29,762 nt of DNA from a virus, in IMG/VR virus record IMGVR_UViG_3300020159_000933, positions 1 through 29,762 of that record. One strand, given 5' to 3'. The notes below the pieces were generated by a model. The model did not search any database and was not told where the DNA came from. It worked only from the letters and a program-made list of their open reading frames with translations. Below are positions 6,215 through 28,613 of the stretch, piece by piece. How positions within the stretch are numbered: position 1 is the first letter of the stretch; every line of letters starts with the position of its first letter. Made by a program: the position numbers and the translations under genes.

Positions 6215-6511
6215 TCATCCGGCAATCACATCCGGACTACCGGCGGCTGCGGCATCACCACAACCAATGGCATCACCAATTCTTGCCACGGCCAAACCGT
6301 TGACAAAAAAGGTCAAACTACCACCAGACTGAGAACTGCCGTGAGTGTCAGGCGGTCCTGGATCGGTATGATCGGGCCAGGCATCAGACACTCGAACAAC
6401 ACCCTGGCCATTGATAAAAACGTCCGGGCTTCCGTTGGGTGTGCTTGGACGCGGAACGTACCCGCCATGCCCGGTACTTGGATCAACATTGGTTCTTGTG
6501 ACTGGTGGCAT
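6215..6511 (-). CDS. PAAR-domain tail-spike tip protein
   Basis: The product is 98 residues and almost entirely one PAAR domain: an N-terminal MPPVTRTNVDPSTGHGG segment, then Gly/Pro/Ser-rich turns with repeated units SPDVFINGQGVVRVSDAW and LTFFVNGLAVARIGDAIGCG, and a final SPDVIAG. PAAR proteins fold as a pointed beta-helical cone that caps the spike of contractile tails (gp5.4 in T4), usually binding a metal through His/Cys; several His (15, 48, 57) and one Cys are present. Its ATG overlaps the preceding stop (TAATG), and a perfect TATAAATA box lies about 60 bases upstream. Confidence 0.88.
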   Translation of the reverse strand: MPPVTRTNVDPSTGHGGYVPRPSTPNGSPDVFINGQGVVRVSDAWPDHTDPGPPDTHGSSQSGGSLTFFVNGLAVARIGDAIGCGDAAAAGSPDVIAG

Positions 6512-7550: not shown

Positions 7551-8684
7551 TTACGCAAATTTAAATTGCTCGGGTATTTTGTCCAAGATCATCTGATGCA
7601 TTTTATTTTTTGTTTGTTTTTGATATTGATAAAGATGATTGTAATTGTGCAAACGAATTTGTTCTGTTTGTTGCATTACTGTTTCTGGATCTAGTGTGCT
7701 TAAATATTCCACCTGATCAAATGCCATTTTAAATCTTGAACTGGCATCTGTGCAGTTGTCATACGATTCGTCAATCACATTATCAAAAGTTTGAAATCCT
7801 AGTTCTTTAAGAAATTTGAGAGTATGCTGTGGCCCAAACATTATAAACAATCTTTGCCCTAACAATACTTTGGCTGTCTTTTCAGTTATAAAAAAAGGTC
7901 CTGGATCTTGGTATCTGTCAGGAGAAGGATGTTGGAATATTGTTTCGCAGCAAATACTGTAGTAAGTTCTATCGTAAATAGCCCAAGGTGTGATTTCACT
8001 GATGTCTCGACGAATTTCGTTTGCCACTTCCCACGCAGGATCTAGATTGGGAGATATATAGGGCCAAATTAAATTGCTATTAACAACATCGGCTGCTTCC
8101 TTGTCTAGAAAGATTTTGGGATCGTGCTGATCGGACCCAAACTCTTTTCTATAAGTGATTACGGATTTCTGCAATATATCTTGTTTAAGATTAAATCTAG
8201 ACATAACATAAGATCTATGAATCTTTTGCGCTCCTAGCAGTGCTTCAAATAAAAATGATTTTTTTGTAGTGCCAGGACGAAATGAATTCAATCGCATGTG
8301 CTGAAATATCCACCACGGCCTATAAACAAAGTTTGCATCGCTAATAGGATCAGTAAGTCCTCCTAATGCAACAAGATAATTTTGAATATTTGCTTTGTGT
8401 ACATGTTCTAAAATAACATCTGTTGTTGAGTTTTCAATGTCCGACAGGATAACAAGATCAAATTTGCTCCAATCAATTGAACAAAGTTCACTGTTATATG
8501 CATACCCACCTTGTTGATTGAACAGTGTTGGAACAGCAGCCACTTTGTAAGGTTGGGCTAGACATTCTTGTAAATCGTCTGTGGTCTCAAATGCAGGATA
8601 GTCTTCTCCTTGCCAGTCTGGCATAGAATCAATTGCTGCATGCGGAGGTAGCAGCGTAAAAATTTTATACTTGAATTGATTCAT
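7551..8684 (-). CDS. Glycosyltransferase-like protein, paralogue A
   Basis: The product is 377 residues and soluble. The signature lies in the second half: YSICCET at 242-248, ITEKTAKVLLGQRLFIMFG at 266-284, then FLKELGFQTFDNVIDESYD to 309. It recurs in the proteins at 15965-16939 and 16936-18042. FLFEALLGAQKIHRSYV at 144-160 matches FDALLGQKRINRDAV in the 368-residue paralogue. The TEK(T/I)AK(P/V)L block resembles the nucleotide-sugar-binding end of fucosyltransferase-like (GT10-type) enzymes, so a sugar-transfer role is likely but unproven. Its ATG overlaps the preceding stop by 4 bases (ATGA), tying it to the DUF6492-like gene. Confidence 0.6.
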   Translation of the reverse strand: MNQFKYKIFTLLPPHAAIDSMPDWQGEDYPAFETTDDLQECLAQPYKVAAVPTLFNQQGGYAYNSELCSIDWSKFDLVILSDIENSTTDVILEHVHKANIQNYLVALGGLTDPISDANFVYRPWWIFQHMRLNSFRPGTTKKSFLFEALLGAQKIHRSYVMSRFNLKQDILQKSVITYRKEFGSDQHDPKIFLDKEAADVVNSNLIWPYISPNLDPAWEVANEIRRDISEITPWAIYDRTYYSICCETIFQHPSPDRYQDPGPFFITEKTAKVLLGQRLFIMFGPQHTLKFLKELGFQTFDNVIDESYDNCTDASSRFKMAFDQVEYLSTLDPETVMQQTEQIRLHNYNHLYQYQKQTKNKMHQMILDKIPEQFKFA

Positions 8685-9523
8685 ATACGACTGGCTATGT
8701 CGTTGTAAATTTTATCAAAATTGATAACAGTGTTAGAAACAAATTCAAATAATATACTGTCATCTAAGTTAGGACAGGCATCCACATAACAGTTATAATC
8801 AACACTGTTAAGTTTCGACAAATCTCCGATGTTTCTTATTTCACATCTATGTTGTACAGTCGTATCTATGTTTCTTCTGGTCAATGCATAATTGCCGAGC
8901 AATTCGTATTCACTAAACCATATTAGGTTAGTTTCGGCTTCTCTCTGACAACTGTCAATTATGGCATCAAGGAAATGTTTGTTGTGTTTTTGTTCTATCT
9001 GCTGGCGCATAGCTACCCAATCTTCTTTAAGAAAAGGTAAAAATTCTGTAATAAAACAGTCTGTTGTCTGTCTTTTTATGCCTAAACTGTCCTCAATTAC
9101 TGAATAATAACCAGGACTGTGTGTAGTGTTGGGTAAAACAAAGAAATTAGGTGTTTTACCATCAAAACATTTGTATGGCCGTATTGCAAACGTATCTGGG
9201 TCTTGAATTAAAAATGATTCTTCGTTAAAATAATCTAGACAAGCAATTTTAAGTGCCTGTTGTCTCAACCAGGTACCGCGATAGTCTCCGGGTTGATCCC
9301 AATGTAAAATTTCAGGATAAGCATCAATTAATTCTTGATCATTTACATATATAAATCTACTGGGATCATCTACATATTTTTCTAGTGTGGCTCGGTAATG
9401 ATGTTCCGATATGTTGCTGATAATATATGTTTTATCTATGCCTTCAAGAAAGTGGTCAAATTGAAAGGACATGATAGCATGTCCCATTCTGTATCCACCA
9501 ACAAATACTGCTCGAGCTGTCAA
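8681..9523 (-). CDS. DUF6492-like putative glycosyltransferase
   Basis: The product is 280 residues. The centre carries [17 protein letters not shown] followed by [14 protein letters not shown] (about 83-117), a DxD-type motif in the style of the DUF6492 family, thought to be nucleotide-sugar transferases. The frame starts with TTG at 9523, whose next base begins the TGA of nrdB (4-base overlap). The next ATG is 12 codons in and would cut the first strand ([14 protein letters not shown]), so the TTG start is favoured; AAGGG lies 8 bases upstream. Sitting between nrdB and another transferase-like gene, it may act on a host surface glycan or a virion component. Function is inferred from family resemblance. 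Confidence 0.65.
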
Positions 9524-15266: not shown

Positions 15267-15274
15267 TATTTAGC
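15267..15274 (-). promoter_or_regulatory. T4-type late promoter candidate (GCTAAATA)
   Basis: The minus strand reads GCTAAATA; the TAA inside it is also the stop codon of the nuclease gene. Predicted start near 15261 gives a leader of about 16 bases with the TGAGGAT ribosome site of the tailspike gene. Confidence 0.55.
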
Positions 15275-15968
15275 TTGTTAGATAGTAGAGCTCAACTCTA
15301 CGCATCCACTGATCGCTCCAGTACTGAAAATCCTGGGGTTCTAGCACAAATTCCTGGTACTGTGGGGTTGAATCGTCATCAGCTGGTTTAGTACACATAA
15401 GAATGACACCTGTTCTAATATCTGTTCCGTGTGTGTCATTGTGAGCTGCCGCATATGCTGCGAGCTGTAGAAAATAATCGTCGATCCATTCGCGTTTCTT
15501 AGGCTTATTCGTTTGCTTAAAATCCATGATTGCAGGCTGTCCTTTCCATACCCCGACACAGTCAGTAGTACCAGCATAAAGCCCAGAGTAGTATAAAGGC
15601 ACCTCGCAACCCCAATATTCATCAACATTTCCTAATCCTTCTAAAATAACTTGTGCTGCCATAAACCAGCTGGGCTGTGCAAACGGATTTGTAGGGAACG
15701 CACCAATATCATCGTTTTTAACGTACCGCTCAAGATAGGTGTGCATACGTGTTCCGCGGTTGGCAGCTTCTGTGGTAATTTGTTGTGCCCGCTCCGCGCC
15801 AACTCTATTGCGCCACTCTTGAAGTTTTTGCTTGGCTTCTGCGGGTTTTGTTTTGTCTAGAATTGTAGTGACGCTAGGAACTCTGCTGCCATCAGGCAGG
15901 GCATAATGGCGCTTGCCCTCTACGCTTTCTCTGGCTAGTGGAGTATAATCAAATTTTGGTATAATCAT
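15270..15968 (-). CDS. PD-(D/E)XK exonuclease, MGME1-like
   Basis: The product is 232 residues from the ATG at 15968. The frame extends 14 codons upstream, but the 15968 start overlaps the preceding stop by 4 bases (ATGA) and gives a domain-like MIIPKFDYTPLARES beginning. Nuclease motifs: PSVTTIL near 35, RGTRMHTYLERYV (His in the usual early helix), D in AGTTDCVGVW, then DFKQTNKPKK carrying the D-x-K/Q core, followed by YFLQLAAYAAAHN (the Q-x-x-x-Y helix). This is the pattern of RecB-family single-strand exonucleases related to mitochondrial MGME1, common in T4-like aquatic phages. A replication, recombination or end-processing role is likely. Last gene of the iscU operon. Confidence 0.82.
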   Translation of the reverse strand: MIIPKFDYTPLARESVEGKRHYALPDGSRVPSVTTILDKTKPAEAKQKLQEWRNRVGAERAQQITTEAANRGTRMHTYLERYVKNDDIGAFPTNPFAQPSWFMAAQVILEGLGNVDEYWGCEVPLYYSGLYAGTTDCVGVWKGQPAIMDFKQTNKPKKREWIDDYFLQLAAYAAAHNDTHGTDIRTGVILMCTKPADDDSTPQYQEFVLEPQDFQYWSDQWMRRVELYYLTS

Positions 15969-16939
15969 TTTAATAGATATTTCATTTTGGATGTTGGATC
16001 TGTTATGCAAATCTTGTTATATACTTTAATATTTTCCTGAGCAATATTATACATATTTTCTATAATTCTTTCTCTGTCCGGGCGATTATATAATTTATTT
16101 AGACTATCTATTATAGCACGTATCCTCAATGATGGCAACAAATACTGATCATATGATTCGTCCAAACAATCAGAAAAAGTTTTAAATCCTAAGTCTTGTA
16201 AATGTTGTAAAGAATCTTTGCCACTTAAGAGCACAAAGGGTTTGCCAGTTGACAATACTTTGGCTAGTTTATCTGTAATTCTTTCTCTGAGATACTCATC
16301 AGTTTCCATTACTACTTCAATTTTAAATTTATTCCAAATTTTTGGATATTCTTGTGCCGCAACATTCATGTCAAGACCATGCTCATGCATATCATTGTTG
16401 AACTGTTTATTTTGTATCCAATCAATTTCTTTATTAAAAACAAACTCCCCGTTAAAGAATTTGCAGAAATTTAGTGCATTAATATATGAATCTTTAGCAC
16501 AAGTTAAGAAAGTGTCTTCTCCAAATGTGGCAAATATTTCATACAACATCCTGGCCCGCATCATACTAGCACGACTGCCGCCAAGGCACCCTACAAATTT
16601 AGCATTTGATAAATCTTTATTAAACTGATTAAGATCAAAGTCTGGAATTAAATAATAGTCCCGTTGCGGTATCCAATGATACGGTTCTGGCGGTTTTATT
16701 TGTGTTTTGAATAAAATTTTCTCTATAGGAATGTCTAGTGCTGTTCGAATATTATCCACGCAACTAATAAAGTTAGGAAGCTTGATATTAGTGCCATCGA
16801 AGTCATCAAAAATTAAATCTTGCCCTCTATAATTTTGTATAATAGCATCTTCCAATTGTGGTAGCTGTATTGTTTGATAATTTTTAGTAATAAAAGCACC
16901 TGGTCTTATAGTAATTTTGTCATCAGAAATTTCTATCAT
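15965..16939 (-). CDS. Glycosyltransferase-like protein, paralogue C
   Basis: The product is 324 residues. It shares with the other two paralogues the C-terminal block ERITDKLAKVLSTGKPFVLL (about 219-238), HLQDLGFKTFSDCLDESYD to 264, and the preceding KIEVVMETD, equivalent to YSIVAET. The N-terminal half is diverged and lacks the FEALLGxxKxxR segment; instead KFVGCLGGSRASMMRARM is at about 114-131 and IDWIQNKQ at about 172-179. A sugar-transfer role is possible; substrate unknown. It overlaps both neighbours by 4 bases (ATGA) within the iscU operon. Confidence 0.58.
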   Translation of the reverse strand: MIEISDDKITIRPGAFITKNYQTIQLPQLEDAIIQNYRGQDLIFDDFDGTNIKLPNFISCVDNIRTALDIPIEKILFKTQIKPPEPYHWIPQRDYYLIPDFDLNQFNKDLSNAKFVGCLGGSRASMMRARMLYEIFATFGEDTFLTCAKDSYINALNFCKFFNGEFVFNKEIDWIQNKQFNNDMHEHGLDMNVAAQEYPKIWNKFKIEVVMETDEYLRERITDKLAKVLSTGKPFVLLSGKDSLQHLQDLGFKTFSDCLDESYDQYLLPSLRIRAIIDSLNKLYNRPDRERIIENMYNIAQENIKVYNKICITDPTSKMKYLLK

Positions 16940-18042
16940 AATGAATTTATTTTTTGTTGGATCTGATCTATTACTACTTTATTCCAGTCAGTTGCTGTTA
17001 GTAGATTGTAGTTATGTTCAAGAATATCTTTTGTTTTATTGTATATTTTAACTTGATCTGCATTGCATAAGAATTTTACTTGTTCCATAGCTGCACTATA
17101 TCTAGCAACATCATCTAATATCTGATCATAACTTTCATCAATTATGCCATCAAAAGTTTTAAATCCTGCACTACGCAAATTTTCTAAAAATTTATAACCA
17201 GTAAATACCACAAACAGTCTGCGGGCAATTATAGGCTTGGCAATTTTTTCTGTATAAAAACTTATTGTATTATCTATATTAGTTTCAGCTACTATACTAT
17301 AAGCTGTTTGATTAAAAACGTCAATTGGTATTACTCTGCTTAAAAATATTTCTATACCATTATATGTACAACGACTAACTGTGCCATGCATTTTTGATTC
17401 AGCCGGGAAACAGTCTTTCTCCCATATAAAATCACTTTTATCAGTAATTGGGCCATCACCTAAATATGTCATTATAAATTTGTCTTGGAGGTTATTATTA
17501 ATAACACCCTCATACACTGCATCTCTGTTGATTCTTTTCTGCCCTAATAAAGCATCAAAATATTTAGGTTTAGGTAAGTTATATGAAATTTCTGCTAACT
17601 TGTCGGGCCAATGATCTTTGTATAAATTTGCTATAATCTGTAACCAATCATGCCATATAATAATATTGTTTTTAAGTACCGATGGTTGTGTTACGGTCCC
17701 AGGTATAACCCAATAGACATTATCATGATGACATTTATCCCAGGTTGCCCATTGATGGCTATGCAATTCGCCGCCGAACGTAAACACTAAATCACTGATC
17801 AAACTTAATTCATTTATTTTATCAGGGAAGTCTGGTCTTGGCAAGTATGGCCAAGGTGGCCGTGGTGGATCACCAATGTCGTAATCTAGTGCAAACTGTT
17901 CTGTAGTAAAAGCTATTTTTTTATTTGCTTGTGCAGCACTATACTCATGCCTGCTATGACACAAAATATATTCCGAGGGAAAAGATAGTTTATTTAACCA
18001 GTAATCATCAAAAAATTTACTGTCTGTATAAACCGCTATCAT
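16936..18042 (-). CDS. Glycosyltransferase-like protein, paralogue B
   Basis: The product is 368 residues. It carries YFDALLGQKRINRDAVYEGV (about 161-180), TAYSIVAETN (246-255), FYTEKIAKPIIARRLFVVF (262-280) and FLENLRSAGFKTFDGIIDES (285-304), matching paralogue A along the second half. The N-terminus has its own pattern (DPPRPPWPYLPRPDFPDKIN and FGGELHSHQWATWDKCHHD). The TEKIAKP block resembles fucosyltransferase-like enzymes. Its ATG directly follows the TAA of the A-type carrier gene (no gap), and its stop overlaps the next ATG by 4 bases, so it is firmly part of the iscU operon. Confidence 0.6.
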   Translation of the reverse strand: MIAVYTDSKFFDDYWLNKLSFPSEYILCHSRHEYSAAQANKKIAFTTEQFALDYDIGDPPRPPWPYLPRPDFPDKINELSLISDLVFTFGGELHSHQWATWDKCHHDNVYWVIPGTVTQPSVLKNNIIIWHDWLQIIANLYKDHWPDKLAEISYNLPKPKYFDALLGQKRINRDAVYEGVINNNLQDKFIMTYLGDGPITDKSDFIWEKDCFPAESKMHGTVSRCTYNGIEIFLSRVIPIDVFNQTAYSIVAETNIDNTISFYTEKIAKPIIARRLFVVFTGYKFLENLRSAGFKTFDGIIDESYDQILDDVARYSAAMEQVKFLCNADQVKIYNKTKDILEHNYNLLTATDWNKVVIDQIQQKINSL

Positions 18043-18372
18043 TTAAACTCGAAAACTTTCGCCGCAACCGCAGCGGTCGCGTTCATTTGGGTTGACGAAC
18101 TCAAATCCTTCATTGAGTCCTTGCCGCTTGTAGTCCATTGTCAATCCATTTACATATGGTAGATCTTTTCCATTAACATAAATCTTAACGCCATTACTGT
18201 CGTATGTCATCCAGTCTCTGGTGATCGGCGGAGCATCGACGTATTCTAGTTTATAAGCTAATCCCGAACAGCCTGTTGTGCGAACTCCAATCATTATGCC
18301 GCAGCCCTTGCCGCGCTTTGTTAGGTGTTGTTGAACTTTTTTAGCTGCTAATTCAGTTAAAACAATCATCAT
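18043..18372 (-). CDS. iscA-like: A-type Fe-S cluster carrier (IscA/ErpA/HesB family)
   Basis: The product is 109 residues, full length for the family. It begins IVLTELAAKKVQQHL; the three invariant cysteines are present: C35 in TTGCSGLAYKL, and C101 and C103 in RCGCGESF at the C-terminus. These proteins accept an Fe-S cluster from the IscU scaffold and deliver it to client enzymes. The likely clients here are the radical SAM proteins, one encoded directly upstream with a 4-base overlap (ATGA) and another at 27492-28613. A second Met immediately follows the first; the first fits the overlap. The next gene starts directly after its stop. Confidence 0.93.
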   Translation of the reverse strand: MMIVLTELAAKKVQQHLTKRGKGCGIMIGVRTTGCSGLAYKLEYVDAPPITRDWMTYDSNGVKIYVNGKDLPYVNGLTMDYKRQGLNEGFEFVNPNERDRCGCGESFRV

Positions 18373-20093
18373 TCGTATCCTGTAAGACTTTTGAATTTTA
18401 CATTTACAGATTTGCCTTCTTTTTTAATACTGTTCTTTATAAACTCGCCAGGAGTTAATACACCTGGTTCAAGATTTTTAGCAATTAGATATAAAAGTTT
18501 ATGATTGTATATCCATGCCGTGCCAGTATTAAATATATAACATGCAGTAAGACAACCTTTACCATCTAGTTTATTTCCATCTAAACCTATTGTGTAGTAA
18601 AACTTATTATAATTAATCCAATTAGAATACAAATTTTCTTCAACTGCTTTATACATCGGCGACTTTAGAAAATCATCAACGACTTTTTCTAAGTTAAAAA
18701 CTGCAATTGACTGAGTTCTAAATTGAGTCAATGCAGAATAGATGTGAGATAAAATAGTCATTTTTACAAAATCTTTTTGATTAAAGCTTACACACGATGC
18801 AGGAAACGTTGCATTAAAATAGTGTTCTCCGTTAAATCGTTCGCTTGAACTATATACAAATTTAAACTTTTCTTGATAGCTTTTATCTCTTGCTGCCGGG
18901 CTCGCTGGCAATAGCTCGCTTATAAAAATTTGTAATTGCAAATCGTGCTTGCTAATTTCACTAAGTGTTTTCCTCCACGAATTAACTGTTTGTCCAGGTA
19001 AACCCTGTATTAACTGAATTTTTGAGCTAATATGAGGATATGCTTGTTTAAGTTCCTTGATCATTGAAAGATGGACATCCCACCCTACATCCGGTCTATC
19101 AATATTTTCTAAAATGGTTTTATTGATATCTTGCACTGATATTGTGAATCCTGCATAATCTGTAATTAAATTTGCTTTAGCTAATAAATGATATATTTTT
19201 AAATTATTTTCTTTTCTTAATTTACTAAAATTTCCGTCAATTTTAAAACCAGCATTTTCAAAAATATTCTTGTTGCCCATATATTCTATCATGTCAATAT
19301 CTTCTTGATATTGCCCAACATTGGCGTCTGCTAGATATATATTTTTAATCTCTAATTTTTGAAATAGGTCAATTTCTTCCTTGTAGCTATTTTTACGTCT
19401 AGTGGTTTTATTTGTTAATCCACTATTCCAGTCGCAGAACGTGCAACTATAAGGGCATCCTCTAGTTAAATCATAGGGAATAACTACACTAACCCCTCTA
19501 TTGCTTTCACTTTGTACCATTTTTGTAAATAAATCAATATTGCTTGTATAAGGACTAATTGACAATTGCGGAACATACTTAAAATCAGCAACAACAGTTT
19601 TTTGTTGTTGTTTGTTATGCCACGCAACATTTGATGTATTAAAAGCAATTAACTTTTTACGACTCAAAACACTTTCGGCTATATCTGCAAAAGCAACCTC
19701 TCCTGCACCATATATTGCATAATCAGCGAACGGATTTTTATTGAAAAAATCTAGATCAATATTTACATTAATACTTGGCCCCCCGGCAACAAAACAAATA
19801 TCCTCGGGTACCAAGTTTTTAATTCTATTAAGTTGACCACAAATAAAGCTATCATTCCAAATATAGTGGCTGCTACAAAATAGATCAGGTTTTTCTCTAT
19901 TTAATAAAAGCACTAATTCTTCATCTGACAATTTTTTTTGAATTGGTACACTCCATTGAATTTGTTCTCCAATATTGGGTCGATTTTGATCTATCCATGT
20001 TTTTAAATATAAAGCTGCAACACCTAAAAATATTATTTTATCGGCGTCATTACGGATTGTATCATTTGCATGATAAAATAAAACTTTAAGCAT
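18369..20093 (-). CDS. B12-binding-domain radical SAM enzyme
   Basis: The product is 574 residues. Residues 1-150 have the pattern of an N-terminal cobalamin-binding Rossmann domain (KVLFYHANDT, KPDLFCSSHYIWN, CFVAGGPSINV, YAIYGAGEVAFADI), without an obvious DxHxxG, as is usual in B12-radical SAM proteins. The radical SAM core starts at LTRGCPYSCTFCDWNSG with C213, C217 and C220 as [4Fe-4S] ligands, followed by IYLADANVGQYQEDI and IQLIQGLPGQT. The ~150-residue C-terminal part is unassigned. Such enzymes do radical methylations or rearrangements; the substrate is not evident. It overlaps iscU by 8 bases and the A-type carrier by 4, implying coupled cluster supply. Confidence 0.85.
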   Translation of the reverse strand: MLKVLFYHANDTIRNDADKIIFLGVAALYLKTWIDQNRPNIGEQIQWSVPIQKKLSDEELVLLLNREKPDLFCSSHYIWNDSFICGQLNRIKNLVPEDICFVAGGPSINVNIDLDFFNKNPFADYAIYGAGEVAFADIAESVLSRKKLIAFNTSNVAWHNKQQQKTVVADFKYVPQLSISPYTSNIDLFTKMVQSESNRGVSVVIPYDLTRGCPYSCTFCDWNSGLTNKTTRRKNSYKEEIDLFQKLEIKNIYLADANVGQYQEDIDMIEYMGNKNIFENAGFKIDGNFSKLRKENNLKIYHLLAKANLITDYAGFTISVQDINKTILENIDRPDVGWDVHLSMIKELKQAYPHISSKIQLIQGLPGQTVNSWRKTLSEISKHDLQLQIFISELLPASPAARDKSYQEKFKFVYSSSERFNGEHYFNATFPASCVSFNQKDFVKMTILSHIYSALTQFRTQSIAVFNLEKVVDDFLKSPMYKAVEENLYSNWINYNKFYYTIGLDGNKLDGKGCLTACYIFNTGTAWIYNHKLLYLIAKNLEPGVLTPGEFIKNSIKKEGKSVNVKFKSLTGYE

Positions 20094-20466
20094 TTTGTTT
20101 ATTTTTATAATCAGTTAGTGCTGCTTTGATTGCGTCTTCGGCTAATATAGAACAGTGTATTTTTACAGGAGGGAGAGCAAGCTCTTCTGCAATTTGCGTA
20201 TTTTTAATCTCCCCGGCTTCTTCAAGAGTCTTGCCCTTGACCCATTCTGAAACAAGCGACGAACTTGCAATTGCCGAGCCGCAACCATAGGTCTTGAACT
20301 TGGCATCAGTAATAACATTATCTTCTACTTTGATTTGAAGCTGTAATACATCTCCGCAAGCTGGTGCACCAACTAAACCGGTTCCTACATTGGGATCATT
20401 TTTGTCTAGTTTGCCAACATTTCTTGGATTCTCATAGTGATCCAAGACTTGACCTGAGTAAGCCAT
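20086..20466 (-). CDS. iscU: Fe-S cluster scaffold IscU
   Basis: The product is 126 residues, essentially the length of bacterial IscU (128). All key residues are visible: C37 and D39 in GAPACGD, C62 in YGCGSAIASSS, and H104-C105 in KIHCSILAEDAI. The LPPVK motif recognised by the HscA chaperone is at 98-102. The protein is the platform on which a cysteine desulphurase builds [2Fe-2S] clusters; no desulphurase gene is visible in the window, so the host IscS would be needed. An AGGAGAT site precedes the ATG, with a candidate sigma70-type promoter at 20486-20514. First gene of a six-gene operon ending at 15270. Confidence 0.95.
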   Translation of the reverse strand: MAYSGQVLDHYENPRNVGKLDKNDPNVGTGLVGAPACGDVLQLQIKVEDNVITDAKFKTYGCGSAIASSSLVSEWVKGKTLEEAGEIKNTQIAEELALPPVKIHCSILAEDAIKAALTDYKNKQNA

Positions 20467-20485
20467 TGCTATCTCCTAATAGTAT

Positions 20486-20514
20486 AGTATAAATTATTTA
20501 ACTACGTTTTGCAA
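20486..20514 (-). promoter_or_regulatory. Candidate sigma70-type promoter of the iscU operon
   Basis: On the minus strand: TTGCAA, 17-base spacer, TATACT (a second overlapping TATACT follows at 20481-20486). Predicted start near 20479, leaving a 13-base leader with AGGAGAT. Unlike the promoters in the small-gene block it lacks the TGC extension. It overlaps the 3' end of the gene at 20498-20908. Confidence 0.5.
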
Positions 20515-20908
20515 GAGCTGATTTGGCCATTGAGTCTACCGTGCGCTCTGGTGGAGTTCTTGGTGCGTTTGGATCACCGATTGCTGCCTCTTCTTCGTCG
20601 TCGGCAAATGGAGTAAGATACACATATTTTACACCAGTGGCATCATCTTTGATATCTTTAATTAAAGATTTTAAGGCTTCATTGTTAGACATAGCCTGAT
20701 CTAGTGTATCTAAGGTGAATTGTGGATGCTGCATTTGTACTAAATTGATCAATGAATCGGCCCGCACTCGTGGTACAGCATGACTGTCGTGAGCGCGGTT
20801 TCTCATAGTTTCAAGAATATTCATTAAATCAAGAATTGCAGGATCTGCTGCTTCGTCCTCGAGGATTTCATCAATTGTGTCCTCGGTAATAATTTCACGA
20901 ATACGCAT
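20498..20908 (-). CDS. Acidic phage protein, unknown function (virion/assembly-like)
   Basis: The product is 136 residues, starting MRIREIITEDTIDEILEDEA. It has an acidic helical N-terminus, a middle helical bundle (LMNILETMRNRAHDSH; ADSLINLVQMQHP) and a Pro/Ala/Asp-rich tail that looks disordered. Its ATG overlaps the stop of the preceding structural-type gene (TAATG), so the two are probably made together from the late promoter at 21609-21616. Scaffold- or core-like composition; no family assigned. Confidence 0.62.
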   Translation of the reverse strand: MRIREIITEDTIDEILEDEAADPAILDLMNILETMRNRAHDSHAVPRVRADSLINLVQMQHPQFTLDTLDQAMSNNEALKSLIKDIKDDATGVKYVYLTPFADDEEEAAIGDPNAPRTPPERTVDSMAKSALAKRS

Positions 20909-21585
20909 TAACGTTTTTCTCTGCCAATTACGTTAGGACCAGCTGCTGCATCAGTTGCTGCAAATTCATCAGTATCCATATCGCTGCCCATGTCAGGTGC
21001 TGGCATTACATCTGGAGCCATTCCTGGTGCAACACCCATACCCATTGGTTGTGCCACTTGTTCACCAGCTAATGCTCTAGCTGCGGTATCTGCTGTGCTT
21101 CTTGCTGAGCTTAACTGTTGAGACATATTGGCTAGCAATGGCTCAACTGCTGCCTTGAATGCATCTGCTTGTTCCATACCAATTTGATCACGGATGGTAT
21201 CTAGTAGAGCAGGCATTTGTTCGTTCTGCATTTTGCTAACTTCTTCAAGCATGTCCTGAACGCTGTCAACCATGTCCTTGGCAGCTAGAATAGCTTGACT
21301 CTTGCCCATTTCGCTTTCCATAATAAGCTGTTGCTTATTTTCTACCATCCAGCGATGTAAGCCTTCACGTACCATTAAAAGTTCCATATACTTAGGATTC
21401 TTTTCTGCTACATGTACTCCATGACTGCGCTTGATTTGATCAAGGCTTTCAGTTAATCCTCGTGCCAGCACATAAGCACGTTTGAAGTCCAAATTGGCAT
21501 AATCAATCTTAACGCCAAAACGGCTTTCCATTACTTTGTTAATTTTTTTTGCTGTGGGCTTGGTGCCCATTTCTGTTAGTCTCAT
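20908..21585 (-). CDS. Virion or scaffold-like protein of T4-type phages
   Basis: The product is 225 residues, starting MRLTEMGTKPTAKKINKVME. Residues 1-150 are helical and include LTESLDQIKRSHGVHVAEKN, YMELLMVREGLHRWM and a long coiled-coil-like stretch of Glu, Met and Gln. Residues 170-225 are low-complexity (Met, Gly, Pro, Ala, Asp: GMGVAPGMAPDVMPAPDM). This resembles prohead core or other assembly proteins of T4-like aquatic phages; the role is inferred. It has a late box and a TAGGA-type site, and its first 47 bases overlap the end of the upstream gene. Confidence 0.65.
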   Translation of the reverse strand: MRLTEMGTKPTAKKINKVMESRFGVKIDYANLDFKRAYVLARGLTESLDQIKRSHGVHVAEKNPKYMELLMVREGLHRWMVENKQQLIMESEMGKSQAILAAKDMVDSVQDMLEEVSKMQNEQMPALLDTIRDQIGMEQADAFKAAVEPLLANMSQQLSSARSTADTAARALAGEQVAQPMGMGVAPGMAPDVMPAPDMGSDMDTDEFAATDAAAGPNVIGREKR

Positions 21586-24117: not shown

Positions 24118-24714
24118 TTAAATTTCGCGTATTAAACCTTTTTTTCTAGCACAAAGTTCCGCCATTTCTTCGTAAGTTATGTTCTCCTCTGGTGCGACAC
24201 TTAAACAATATCTAGTGTAAGGTGAATTATTGTAAACTGTATGATATTTGTCTAAATTTACTAGATTAGCACCTTGTAATTCGTCCTTAAATAGTAATCT
24301 ACAATCTTCGTTATATACCCACAAATACGATTGATCGTAAAATTTTTCCTTATATGGCTTATATTTTCCTCGAAAGTTATACCATTCCATAATAGTTTTT
24401 CCGCCCCAAACCCAATTTACTGCAAAATTTCTAAAGTATTTTGTATCATGCTCATCGGTCAGTGAGTTATCAGAATCCATATGAATTTTATGTCTTTCTT
24501 GAGCTTCTTGAATATACAAAATACTTTTTTCTTTTGATGCTGTTAATCCTAATTTTTTAAAAAAATCTATCGCTGTATTAGGAATAACATGTCCTCCTAA
24601 CGTGAACCAAATCATATTATTAAATGTAAGAAATCTCTCAATGTCCTCTTGTAGCTTTAATTCATCAGAAATATTAGGTAAATTAAGAGGTATATAATAA
24701 TTTTTTGAATTCAT
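24118..24714 (-). CDS. Probable 2OG-Fe(II) oxygenase-like (double-stranded beta-helix) protein
   Basis: The product is 198 residues. The metal and cosubstrate ligands expected of 2-oxoglutarate/Fe(II) oxygenases can be placed: H78 and D80 in HKIHMDSDNS, H158 in DKYHTVYNNS, and R168 ten residues after it (SPYTRYCLSV), the usual spacing to the 2OG-binding Arg. Strand-like NFAVNWVWGGKTIMEWY at about 96-112 fits the barrel core seen in phage hydroxylase-like proteins. Substrate unknown; protein or nucleic-acid modification are both possible. Its ATG overlaps the preceding stop (TAATG), and it ends the five-gene unit starting at 27469. Confidence 0.58.
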   Translation of the reverse strand: MNSKNYYIPLNLPNISDELKLQEDIERFLTFNNMIWFTLGGHVIPNTAIDFFKKLGLTASKEKSILYIQEAQERHKIHMDSDNSLTDEHDTKYFRNFAVNWVWGGKTIMEWYNFRGKYKPYKEKFYDQSYLWVYNEDCRLLFKDELQGANLVNLDKYHTVYNNSPYTRYCLSVAPEENITYEEMAELCARKKGLIREI

Positions 24715-25826
24715 TAGTTATTTTTTGCAAAATTTGCGGCGCTGAATACTTCGCGATCTACAATCTTTACTAATCCGCTTGATGTGGGAAATACAAAGCC
24801 TTCGCCTGCTGGTTGCCCACTAACATATTCTTCAATGCCTTGTACTTGTGCTGCTAACTGTTTAGCTAGATTTTGTTTAAAGGCATATATATTATTCCAA
24901 ATAGCCTTTAATCCAACGTAGGCAGGGCTTTCAACTATTTCTTTGTCAGGAGTTTGTGCAAACAACTTTCCTGTAAAATCGTCGCCAGCTAATGCATTGT
25001 ATTGTACTTTACTGACATTCGCTGCCAACCAAGTATGTAATGGCTCGTTTGTTTGTCGTGTAATAAATTTATTAAAGTATGTTTTAATTCTATCTCTAGT
25101 GCTTTGCGGAACAGATGCTAATAGTTCATCAACTGCCGCGCCATATTTTTTTAAAGCAGATTCTGCTGCTCGTTCTTGTTGTACTGGAGTTTTTAAAGTA
25201 AACTTATTACCAGCAGTTGGTGAAATTATGGCCATACCGCCTGGTACGTTTGCTAATCCGTTGCCATTCCATTGTGCAGGCTGACCACCAACTTGATCAA
25301 AATACTGATGTACAACAATACCACCAATGGTACCTGTAATTTGTTTTCCTAATGGGCTATTGGTAGCTACTCTATATTCAACTAGGTTTGGCTGAAATAC
25401 AAACTTGCCTTGTTGAGGTTGTAGTTGTCCCGCATATAATAAATCACCCCAATAAAATCCTGGTCCTTGTGTTGCTTGATTTAATGCCGGCCATATTGCT
25501 TCTAGTAGACCGTAAAGACTGCCTCTTAAATTACCTGATGCTTTTTGTGAATCATAGCGTTTCCAATCGTCTACATTTTTAGCAAGGAATCCTGCATCAA
25601 ACATGTATTTGTCCATGACCGCCAATTGACCATCCTTGTCTCTACCAAATATGAGAGCCGGCTTTCCATCCCATTTGATAGTAAGGTTTCTAGGATTAGA
25701 TATTACAGATTTTAATCCGGCGATTTGTTGAGCCGCAGCAGCACTGCCAGACAGTATTGCATCCTCGGGATGTGGGGTCCTAGGATTGGTAGCTTCCATT
25801 AAGTACTCAACAAATTCAAAATGCAT
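24714..25826 (-). CDS. DNA/RNA ligase-like (covalent nucleotidyltransferase superfamily) protein, DUF6267-like
   Basis: The product is 370 residues. Ligase superfamily signatures can be read: motif I K51-W-D53-G54 in LTIKWDGKPALIFGRD (K51 the candidate AMP/GMP-accepting lysine), a middle strand GFYWGDLLYAG at about 123-133, a motif IV-like GEGFVF at 341-346, and a motif V-like lysine K354 in GLVKIVDREVF. The ~200 residues between are helical and Gln/Ala-rich. I recall similar phage proteins as DUF6267, without a proven reaction. It is coupled by one-base overlaps to a nucleotidyltransferase-like gene upstream and an oxygenase-like gene downstream. Nucleotidyl transfer is inferred from motifs. 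Confidence 0.68.
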   Translation of the reverse strand: MHFEFVEYLMEATNPRTPHPEDAILSGSAAAAQQIAGLKSVISNPRNLTIKWDGKPALIFGRDKDGQLAVMDKYMFDAGFLAKNVDDWKRYDSQKASGNLRGSLYGLLEAIWPALNQATQGPGFYWGDLLYAGQLQPQQGKFVFQPNLVEYRVATNSPLGKQITGTIGGIVVHQYFDQVGGQPAQWNGNGLANVPGGMAIISPTAGNKFTLKTPVQQERAAESALKKYGAAVDELLASVPQSTRDRIKTYFNKFITRQTNEPLHTWLAANVSKVQYNALAGDDFTGKLFAQTPDKEIVESPAYVGLKAIWNNIYAFKQNLAKQLAAQVQGIEEYVSGQPAGEGFVFPTSSGLVKIVDREVFSAANFAKNN

Positions 25827-27488: not shown

Positions 27489-27496
27489 TATTTATT
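27489..27496 (-). promoter_or_regulatory. T4-type late promoter candidate (AATAAATA)
   Basis: 7 of 8 consensus matches on the minus strand, overlapping the last codons of the radical SAM gene. Predicted start near 27483 gives a 14-base leader with CGGAG before the TTG start at 27469. Confidence 0.55.
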
Positions 27497-28613
27497 GTAA
27501 ATATCGAGAATAGTATTGCACAATCTCAGGAAATGTATTTTTCCAGTTTTGTCCTCTAATTTGATCATGTTTTTCAGTTTCTGACAGCATTTTTTTAATT
27601 TTGCTTGGATTTTCCTTCCAGTTATTTGGAAGCATTTGTTTAGTATTCCTATCTTTGATAACCTGGGCATACTCCTCTGTTATTGCATCTATACCAAGCA
27701 AGTTATGTACTGCTAACTGCTGCGAATGCTCAACTATATCGCCCAATCTATTTGCATGAAAATTATTTTTTATCCATGCTGCAACTTCGCCAGAATAGAA
27801 TAAACTAAAATTACTCAAAGTTTCTGTGATACAAAACATTACATTCACAGGTAGTTTTTCTCTCATTTGCATGATATTTTGTGTCATTTGATTCCAGTCG
27901 CCAGGCCATCTAAGATAATTAAATTTTTGTTCTACCCCATCTATACTGATAAAAATTTTTACTAGATGAAATTTTTCTATTATTTTATAATATTTTGGAT
28001 TTATTGATTGAGTGCCATTTGTTTGGAATCCTACCAAAAGTTTTTTTCCAGCATCGGGCACAAGCTCGGCCAACGCTTCAGCTAATTTCCAGTATGAAGT
28101 TCCTAACAATGTTTCACCACCACAAAAATGTACCTGTTCCAGGTTAGATAAATCTAGAGTTTTTAATGCAGATATTACTTTGTCTACGTCCGTAGAATTA
28201 TTTAAATTAGTGTAGGACATATTATTTTGTTTTAGATATTGTTGCCATAAAGTACTACTCTCAGGACCGCAAATAGTACAAGCTAAATTACAACCTCTAT
28301 CAAATAAAAAATCAATTCTCAACGGGCCAGACAAGTTATATTTTTTTCCGTAGTGTTCGAGCATTGATTTTCTAAAACTTTTAAGTCCCCCAGCTTCAAT
28401 CTGTCTGCACTCCCAACAGTTAGGATCCCATTGATTTTGATTGTTTACTTCTCTTAAACTAGTAAATTTTAAATTTTTCCATATTTTATCATTGTCTAAA
28501 CTCATTAAAGGTTCGGTACTTAAACAACATTGATTTATGCCCAACTCTCCATTGTTGTTTTTAAAATTAATATTAAGTCCGCCGTGGATCATTGGACAAT
28601 AAAGGTCAGCCAT
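27492..28613 (-). CDS. Twitch-domain-type radical SAM protein
   Basis: The product is 373 residues. The radical SAM cluster motif is RGCNLACTICGPESS with C108, C112 and C115; GGE-type VHFCGGETLLG follows, then ISIDGVEQKFNYLRWPG. Extra cysteines in the N-terminal part (C6, C29, C30, C66 and C69 in NCWECRQIE) could bind an auxiliary Fe-S cluster, as in twitch/SPASM proteins. This type is frequent in T4-like aquatic phages and its substrate is unknown. It lies 21 bases after the helicase gene. The phage-encoded IscU and A-type carrier could supply its clusters. Confidence 0.85.
   Translation of the reverse strand: MADLYCPMIHGGLNINFKNNNGELGINQCCLSTEPLMSLDNDKIWKNLKFTSLREVNNQNQWDPNCWECRQIEAGGLKSFRKSMLEHYGKKYNLSGPLRIDFLFDRGCNLACTICGPESSTLWQQYLKQNNMSYTNLNNSTDVDKVISALKTLDLSNLEQVHFCGGETLLGTSYWKLAEALAELVPDAGKKLLVGFQTNGTQSINPKYYKIIEKFHLVKIFISIDGVEQKFNYLRWPGDWNQMTQNIMQMREKLPVNVMFCITETLSNFSLFYSGEVAAWIKNNFHANRLGDIVEHSQQLAVHNLLGIDAITEEYAQVIKDRNTKQMLPNNWKENPSKIKKMLSETEKHDQIRGQNWKNTFPEIVQYYSRYLQ

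Follow-up and report, generated by a model that had tools for sequence, protein, structure and literature searches.

We analysed a viral stretch of 29,762 bases (IMG/VR virus record IMGVR_UViG_3300020159_000933, positions 1 to 29,762; the window in what follows), in which the gene of a cobalamin-type (B12-type) radical S-adenosylmethionine (rSAM) enzyme lies between iscU, coding for an iron-sulfur (Fe-S) scaffold, and iscA, coding for an A-type Fe-S carrier. We propose, with a probability of about 0.6, that iscU and iscA constitute a general Fe-S supply of the phage, which would use the cysteine desulfurase of the host, and that the interval between them is a cargo slot, in which a probable methylase is the most frequent occupant. 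A census of related loci suggests that iscU and iscA are near-standard in these rSAM-rich phages, and that what lies between them is optional.

The iscU-iscA module and the rSAM content of the phages

The census loci were sampled through two neighbouring genes, that of an exonuclease (Exo) and the conserved gene hypA, to avoid selecting them by isc or rSAM genes. The Exo set comprised 81 entries (one locus being listed twice) and the hypA set 80; 16/81 and 33/80 entries were dropped because the anchor was missing or oddly ordered, 9 and 15 were dropped as duplicates, and the sampling in either set is skewed to the window's relatives. Among the 77 distinct hypA..Exo loci, 68 contained both iscU and iscA, 56 of them without a B12-type rSAM gene and 12 with the order iscU-rSAM-iscA (one of these being the window's own phage). 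The remaining loci had neither isc nor rSAM genes (4), iscU only (3) or iscA only (2), and no locus combined a B12-type rSAM gene with an incomplete isc pair. When present, this gene was between iscU and iscA in 12/12 cases, as compared to 9/40 for other cargo genes; the 12 loci are related and not independent, and unnamed cargo shorter than 140 aa was excluded. No fewer than 6 gains or losses of the B12-type rSAM gene are needed on the hypA tree, and supported branches force 4 of them.

Other rSAM genes were also found in these loci, some of them between iscU and iscA. About four kinds of rSAM protein, grouped by eye, are encoded in or beside the isc module; of five proteins counted by motif alone, one scores under the Pfam cut-off. 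An rSAM gene of some kind was present in 25/68 loci with the isc pair vs. 0/9 loci without it (p 0.027, kinship not corrected). The twitch-domain rSAM genes, relatives of a second rSAM gene of the window, were located before iscU in 6 cases and after iscA in 3, and never between the two, in the 68 isc loci.

In loci outside the census, further cargo was noted in the interval: genes for a BPL_N-like protein and a TylF-like methyltransferase and, on the opposite strand, one for a fatty acid desaturase. The desaturase-like gene was seen in five loci (L110, L113, L111, L132 and L147; Pfam-checked in L113), where it is accompanied by a hydrolase-like, BPL_N-like or TylF-like gene.

The two isc proteins belong to well-defined families. 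IscU of the window scored 219.3 bits against TIGR01999, above the curated cut-off of 192.4 (NifU_N, 2.4e-51), and keeps C37, D39, C62, H104, C105 and the LPPVK motif. In IscU proteins the three cluster cysteines and the aspartate are residues of the scaffold function, and LPPVK is the chaperone-binding motif. The GCGSA and LPPVK-HCS patterns are present in 135/135 distinct phage IscU proteins, and P-x-CGD in 132/135. IscA gave 94.8 bits against TIGR00049 (cut-off 58.8; Fe-S_biosyn, 1e-18) and stayed below the cut-off of the IscA equivalog TIGR02011 (134.7 vs. 150.6 bits); GCSG is found in 129/129 and CGCGESF in 128/129 distinct phage IscA proteins. The original prediction, that all cysteines of scaffold and carrier are intact, was borne out (C37, C62 and C105 in IscU; C35, C101 and C103 in IscA).

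The gene set of the bacterial ISC system includes the desulfurase IscS, hscBA and fdx. The phages share with it the IscU equivalog, with its LPPVK motif, and the A-type carrier; they differ in that no cysteine desulfurase exceeded the PF00266 cut-off in 20 related records, which may be fragments and contained one fragment scoring under that value, so that sulfur would come from the host. Because LPPVK is kept and no desulfurase passed the cut-off in these records, phage IscU most likely works with the cysteine desulfurase and the chaperones of the host. IscA would then pass the clusters on. In this group of T4-related phages the two proteins may form a near-standard Fe-S supply module, the clients of which would be phage-encoded rSAM enzymes, of which a genome often has several, and perhaps proteins of the host. 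Of 50,697 named phage records, 17 have a match to IscU and 11 to IscA; several of these resemble host DNA by eye. The identity of IscU was also considered as a guide to the host. In 398 genomes of Pseudomonadota, the phylum to which a Magnetococcales genome belongs, the best cellular IscU was 82% identical, but phage IscU proteins span 74-100%, and identity by itself names no host.

The content in rSAM genes was determined over whole records. In 40 long records, 169 rSAM matches were counted (150 listed), 158 of which fall in the 37 records with iscU; 35 of these 37 hold at least one. The density was 3.5 per 100 kb in the 37 iscU records and 3.6 in the 17 records chosen through the anchor genes, with up to 13 per record, as compared to 0.34 per 100 kb (12 rSAM matches in 3.54 Mb) in 10 phage isolates that lack NifU_N and share the exonuclease or NrdA. 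In the 17 anchor-chosen records, 8/65 listed rSAM genes were within 2 kb of iscU, where 2.32 were expected (permutation p 0.0021); this test covers 65 listed of 76 counted matches, includes the window's phage, omits G046 (no iscU) and treats the records as independent. The corresponding count in the 37 records, 16/140 with 5.2 expected, is biased, some records having been chosen for rSAM. The idea, put forward in the original prediction, of a phage providing for radical SAM chemistry of its own holds in general and with moderate confidence on the basis of the 158 matches in iscU records and of the excess near iscU; its tie to the one enzyme enclosed by iscU and iscA is not supported.

The records richest in rSAM matches were G022, G043, G001, G019 and G027, with a maximum of 13 matches in G027 and of 13.8 per 100 kb in G022 (no iscU shown for the latter).

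The enzyme between iscU and iscA

The product of the gene enclosed by iscU and iscA matched PF04055 (Radical_SAM) with an E-value of 3.6e-10 and 40.7 bits (cut-off 29.5), and its CxxxCxxC motif (C213, C217 and C220) is invariant in 29 relatives. The match to the Pfam B12-binding family was below the cut-off (15.6 vs. 32.1 bits, E 0.015); this assignment, weak by Pfam, is supported by profile and fold comparisons. A profile of 29 viral relatives searched against the PDB found TokK (2.2e-43) and CysS (4.8e-27), the methylases of carbapenem and cystobactamid, respectively. The AlphaFold2 (AF2) model, with a predicted local distance difference test score (pLDDT) of 87.8 and a predicted template modelling score (pTM) of 0.88, consists of a cobalamin-type Rossmann domain, a radical SAM domain and a C-terminal domain, as in methylases of the TokK/CysS type. 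It matched TokK nearly over its full length (Foldseek 4.5e-29; Z 27.1 over 528/574 residues, root mean square deviation (rmsd) 4.3) and CysS with Z 25.7 over 497 residues, followed by TsrM with Z 18.3. W79 is invariant in 29/29 relatives and is aligned to W76 of TokK and W75 of CysS (residue numbers counted from the alignment), which, according to passages of two papers, sit at the lower face of the cobalt (PMC12846815, PMC13331322).

Fold and motif make a cobalamin-dependent methylase the likeliest identity of the protein; most likely it would C-methylate a small molecule or a glycan, this substrate being a guess. It is improbable that the protein, though a radical SAM enzyme of TokK-like fold, works without cobalamin or carries out a reaction other than methylation. 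Such an enzyme would agree with the sub-cut-off B12-binding match and with the presence of AprD4, MiaB and RimO in the lists of fold matches, but the best near-full-length matches are two cobalamin methylases and the tryptophan at the under-cobalt position never varies.

The phage enzyme shares with TokK and CysS the near-full-length fold, with its N-terminal Rossmann-type domain, the CxxxCxxC motif and the tryptophan; it differs in being only 16-22% identical to them and in belonging to a virus-dominated family. In the substrate-bound structures of TokK and CysS the substrates are pantetheinylated, as stated in the titles of the entries. A substrate bound to a carrier protein was considered for the phage enzyme and dropped, as the carrier-protein domain PF00550 was found in 1/22 related records (G021, the record of locus L218, where the rSAM gene is enclosed by iscU and iscA). 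The best NCBIfam match was the KedN5 family of methylcobalamin rSAM methyltransferases (NF033712), with 99 bits over residues 25-404, far under the cut-off of 700 bits.

No PHROG match was obtained at E 0.1, and the 50,697 named phage records contained one weak relative, 25.5% identical over one third of the length. Relatives are encoded in 462 viral contig stretches (E 1e-3 or better). In cellular genomes (one for each of 84,980 species), a non-exhaustive scan with two peptide patterns that are conserved in the family found 7 loci, which at 20-26% identity were not accepted as orthologues; two of them, from Magnetococcales, lie amid genes that look by eye like sugar-nucleotide genes. As judged from these sequence searches, the family is virus-dominated. 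Two distant phage proteins in BFVD (A0A6J5LGQ4 and A0A6J7XS70), 18-19% identical to the model, have the same fold, and one is named B12-binding-like; such phage enzymes have therefore been deposited before.

Readings of the iscU-rSAM-iscA order

The family of the rSAM enzyme was followed through the best 80 of 462 rSAM relatives; the other locus searches, which had 396, 171, at least 599 and 303 matches, were likewise limited to the best 80 each. The family comprises 56 distinct proteins, of which 43 are encoded between iscU and iscA, 1 after iscA and 12 with no isc gene nearby. Four of the 56 (L079, L091, L112 and L117) were reached via isc queries alone, and without them 39/52 are enclosed; three of the 43 are on contigs ending soon after the rSAM gene, with a partial iscA in L009 and L032 and none in the last 1.1 kb of L024. 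The order iscU-rSAM-iscA is kept down to about 40% rSAM identity, and in some loci two different members stand in tandem inside one iscU-iscA pair (L091, 6393-9856; L079, 2142-5605; L219; L221).

The original prediction had reckoned against itself any homologous phage with the radical SAM gene and without iscU and iscA, and locally the 12 members just mentioned are of this kind. Nine of these loci (L012, L013, L019, L177, L200, L206, L209, L210 and L213) keep the same flanks: hypB precedes the rSAM gene, and Exo follows it either immediately or behind a single gene, SGNH hydrolase-like by eye and lacking a Pfam match; the contig of L213 stops before Exo, and L019 has a short open reading frame (ORF) after hypB. 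In the rSAM tree the isc-less state is nested among members enclosed by iscU and iscA and requires 4 changes, supported branches forcing 2 of these. Of the rSAM-bearing records without local isc genes, 2/16 have iscU elsewhere; since these records are mostly short fragments and iscA was not searched there, genome-wide absence of isc genes is not proven. Outside the slot, the rSAM members L191, L192 and L199 were seen beside a gene that clusters with a TauD-type dioxygenase and in the vicinity of a UvdE-type endonuclease gene, the two assignments being checked in L198 and L192, respectively.

The start of the rSAM gene overlaps the end of iscU by 8 bp in 17/56 members, and a tetramer resembling a Shine-Dalgarno (SD) sequence precedes 0/17 of these starts, as compared to 104/122 iscU starts. 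From these sequence features, translation of the rSAM gene is likely coupled to that of iscU. In the window, the cargo of the interval would be a TokK/CysS-type cobalamin-dependent rSAM enzyme, probably made by such coupling. The ratio of nonsynonymous to synonymous substitution rates (dN/dS) was 0.003 and 0.063 for IscU, 0.079-0.14 for rSAM (one further pair gave no ratio) and 0.032 for IscA (one pair, as the two IscA comparisons involve the same contig), with dS mostly near saturation; iscU, rSAM and iscA look to be under purifying selection.

Several observations weigh against a general supply of Fe-S clusters to the phage enzymes. In the census, the presence of the B12-type rSAM gene is not associated with that of the isc genes (Fisher p 0.34), and the association of any rSAM gene with isc is not supported by independent pairs on the hypA tree (median p 1, the informative pairs being too few). 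The contrast in rSAM density is confounded by lineage and habitat, no rSAM match was obtained in two iscU records of about 50 kb each (G045 and G050), and C48C1, the sole named iscU phage record scanned for rSAM, has one. Most rSAM genes are far from iscU, and nearness explains few of them. Cargo unrelated to Fe-S proteins is also found in the interval (GNAT genes, with one case Pfam-checked, a kinase-like and a sulfotransferase-like gene, both judged by eye, and a glycosyltransferase (GT)-like gene). Lastly, an SD-like tetramer precedes 8/27 iscA starts behind rSAM, so iscA is not always coupled; these 27 junctions, as well as the 14 cargo-free ones considered below, are only those whose iscA start fitted one pattern.

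The best surviving alternative, which we regard as possible though clearly less likely than a general supply, is that the region from hypB to Exo is a recombination hot spot, in which the arrangement around the rSAM gene is inherited or exchanged through its isc flanks with no functional link. The flanking isc genes could indeed transfer an insert via homologous exchange. The unrelated cargo of the same interval (GNAT, TylF-like methyltransferase, desaturase, BPL_N-like and GT-like genes) and the repeated changes on the hypA tree, 4 of at least 6 being forced, fit with such hitch-hiking, but the excess of rSAM genes near iscU (8/65) does not, though in that test the records were taken as independent and the phage itself was included. 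Somewhat more doubtful is that the isc genes mainly sustain Fe-S enzymes of the host during infection and that the nearness of rSAM genes is incidental. The two iscU records with no rSAM match would agree with it, as does the naming of marine viral isc genes as auxiliary metabolic genes in part of an earlier paper (PMC5332604), but one or more rSAM matches are present in 35/37 iscU records.

A more far-reaching view, which we consider rather unlikely, takes the iscU-iscA junction as a client cassette: an inserted Fe-S enzyme would be made alongside the scaffold and receive its cluster immediately. The commonest client would be the TokK-like methylase, from a family evolved in viruses, and would decorate a molecule of phage or host (e.g., a glycan made by the neighbouring GT-like enzymes), in a virus-owned pathway of radical methylation.

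That iscU and iscA instead mature specifically the enclosed rSAM enzyme, the three forming one functional unit, appears improbable: the 43/56 enclosed members, tandem pairs included, the order kept to about 40% identity and the likely coupling speak for it, but 56/68 isc loci have no B12-type rSAM gene, the 12 members without isc nearby occupy nested positions in the tree, at a cost of 4 changes (2 forced), and in 13/14 cargo-free junctions measured it is iscA that begins at the end of iscU, with no SD-like tetramer, making coupling a trait of the junction and not of the rSAM gene. Since cargo-free iscA is found SD-less at this place and some iscA genes behind rSAM have an SD-like tetramer, the coupled place is a property of the iscU end rather than of the trio. 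The original prediction of the isc pair as supply for the enclosed client is not upheld by these counts or by the lack of association in the census. As most rSAM genes lie away from isc, a general supply fits better than a dedicated one.

Surrounding genes and known systems

The genes under discussion are on the minus strand throughout (Table 1). Over 17.9 kb, in a single alignment, the window is identical to a 53.6-kb IMG/VR contig.

Table 1. Genes of the isc locus of the window and its neighbours, with the evidence for each assignment
Gene or product	Coordinates	Strand	Evidence or remarks
iscU, Fe-S scaffold	20086..20466	-	TIGR01999, PHROG 8429, NifU_N; C37/D39/C62/H104/C105 + LPPVK
Cobalamin-type rSAM, TokK/CysS-like, probable C-methyltransferase	18369..20093	-	Radical_SAM, profile vs PDB, AF2, Foldseek
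iscA, A-type Fe-S carrier, C35/C101/C103	18043..18372	-	TIGR00049, PHROG 17776
GT1, glycosyltransferase-like, GT-B-type model	16936..18042	-	AF2 model; GT10 fucosyltransferase Z 12.4
GT2, remote relative of GT1	15965..16939	-	21% identity to GT1 in alignment
Exo, PD-(D/E)XK exonuclease, ATG at 15968	15270..15968	-	PHROG 298 1.1e-55
hypB, conserved gene upstream of slot	20498..20908	-	flanks many slots in census
hypA, conserved gene, census anchor	20908..21585	-	relatives in 303 viral contig stretches
Second rSAM gene, twitch-domain family	27492..28613	-	NF033640 175.8 bits > cut-off 170

The ORFs confirmed the gene order, the coordinates and the overlaps given in the original prediction, of 8 bp between iscU and rSAM and of 4 bp between rSAM and iscA. 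The spacing is 0 bp between iscA and GT1, and GT1 overlaps GT2 by 4 bp. The ORF of the exonuclease as listed mechanically begins with TTG and overlaps GT2 by 46 bp; its in-frame ATG at 15968 is a better placement of the start and reduces this overlap to 4 bp, and with this start the tight spacing predicted for the GT genes and the nuclease also holds.

The sole feature found in 20467-20514, upstream of iscU, is a sigma-70-like match (20514-20486). Sigma-70-like sites (36) were fewer than the mean in shuffled sequences (43.8), and for this reason we claim neither a promoter nor an operon boundary; terminator-like sites were 12 as compared to 7.4. The T4-type late promoter motif is TATAAATA, and its 3 sites showed no excess over the 3.72 expected by chance.

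Describing the genes behind iscA as glycosyltransferase-like is fair for GT1 in view of its predicted GT-B-like structure, and unproven, as GT1 has no match in Pfam. Its AF2 model (mean pLDDT 86.7) was closest to an alpha-1,3-fucosyltransferase over 262 residues (rmsd 4.6) and gave Z 10-12 with many GT-B enzymes, the best Foldseek E-value being 5.7e-5. In the alignment that contains GT1 and GT2, 15 columns are invariant across the 16 sequences. Another GT1-like gene, the third of the window (24% identity to GT1), and a DUF6492 gene are located at 7551-8684 (-) and 8681-9523 (-), beside the ribonucleotide reductase genes. The product of hypB had no Pfam match at 0.01. Elsewhere the window encodes the ribonucleotide reductase NrdA/NrdB and a glutaredoxin, a DUF6267 protein (24714-25826, minus strand; 5.8e-31) and, by eye, a DnaB-like helicase and a PAAR-type spike-tip-like protein (6215-6511, minus strand).

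Part of the proposal has precedents. Genes for IscU or A-type carriers were described in T4-like marine viral genomes, one of which has 12 rSAM genes, and in 2017 the viral assembly proteins were proposed to serve both viral and host Fe-S proteins (PMC5332604); section 14 of that paper describes neither a fixed iscU-rSAM-iscA order nor a cobalamin-type enzyme. A passage on a huge virus with 15 rSAM enzymes mentions a B12-binding domain (PMC9723712), a domain make-up similar to that of the phage enzyme, and gives no isc context. From these portions of the two papers, the general idea of phage isc genes serving many phage rSAM enzymes is already published. In the literature searched we did not meet the conserved placement of the rSAM gene between iscU and iscA, the behaviour of the slot or the TokK-like viral family.

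These results suggest that Fe-S assembly genes of phages are better read together with the whole rSAM set of the phage than with a single neighbour. They also point to a large family, dominated by viruses, whose members are probably B12-dependent methylases and whose representative in the window had no PHROG match. Through a phage enzyme that needs cobalamin as well as a 4Fe-4S cluster, infection would be linked to the B12 and iron status of the host.

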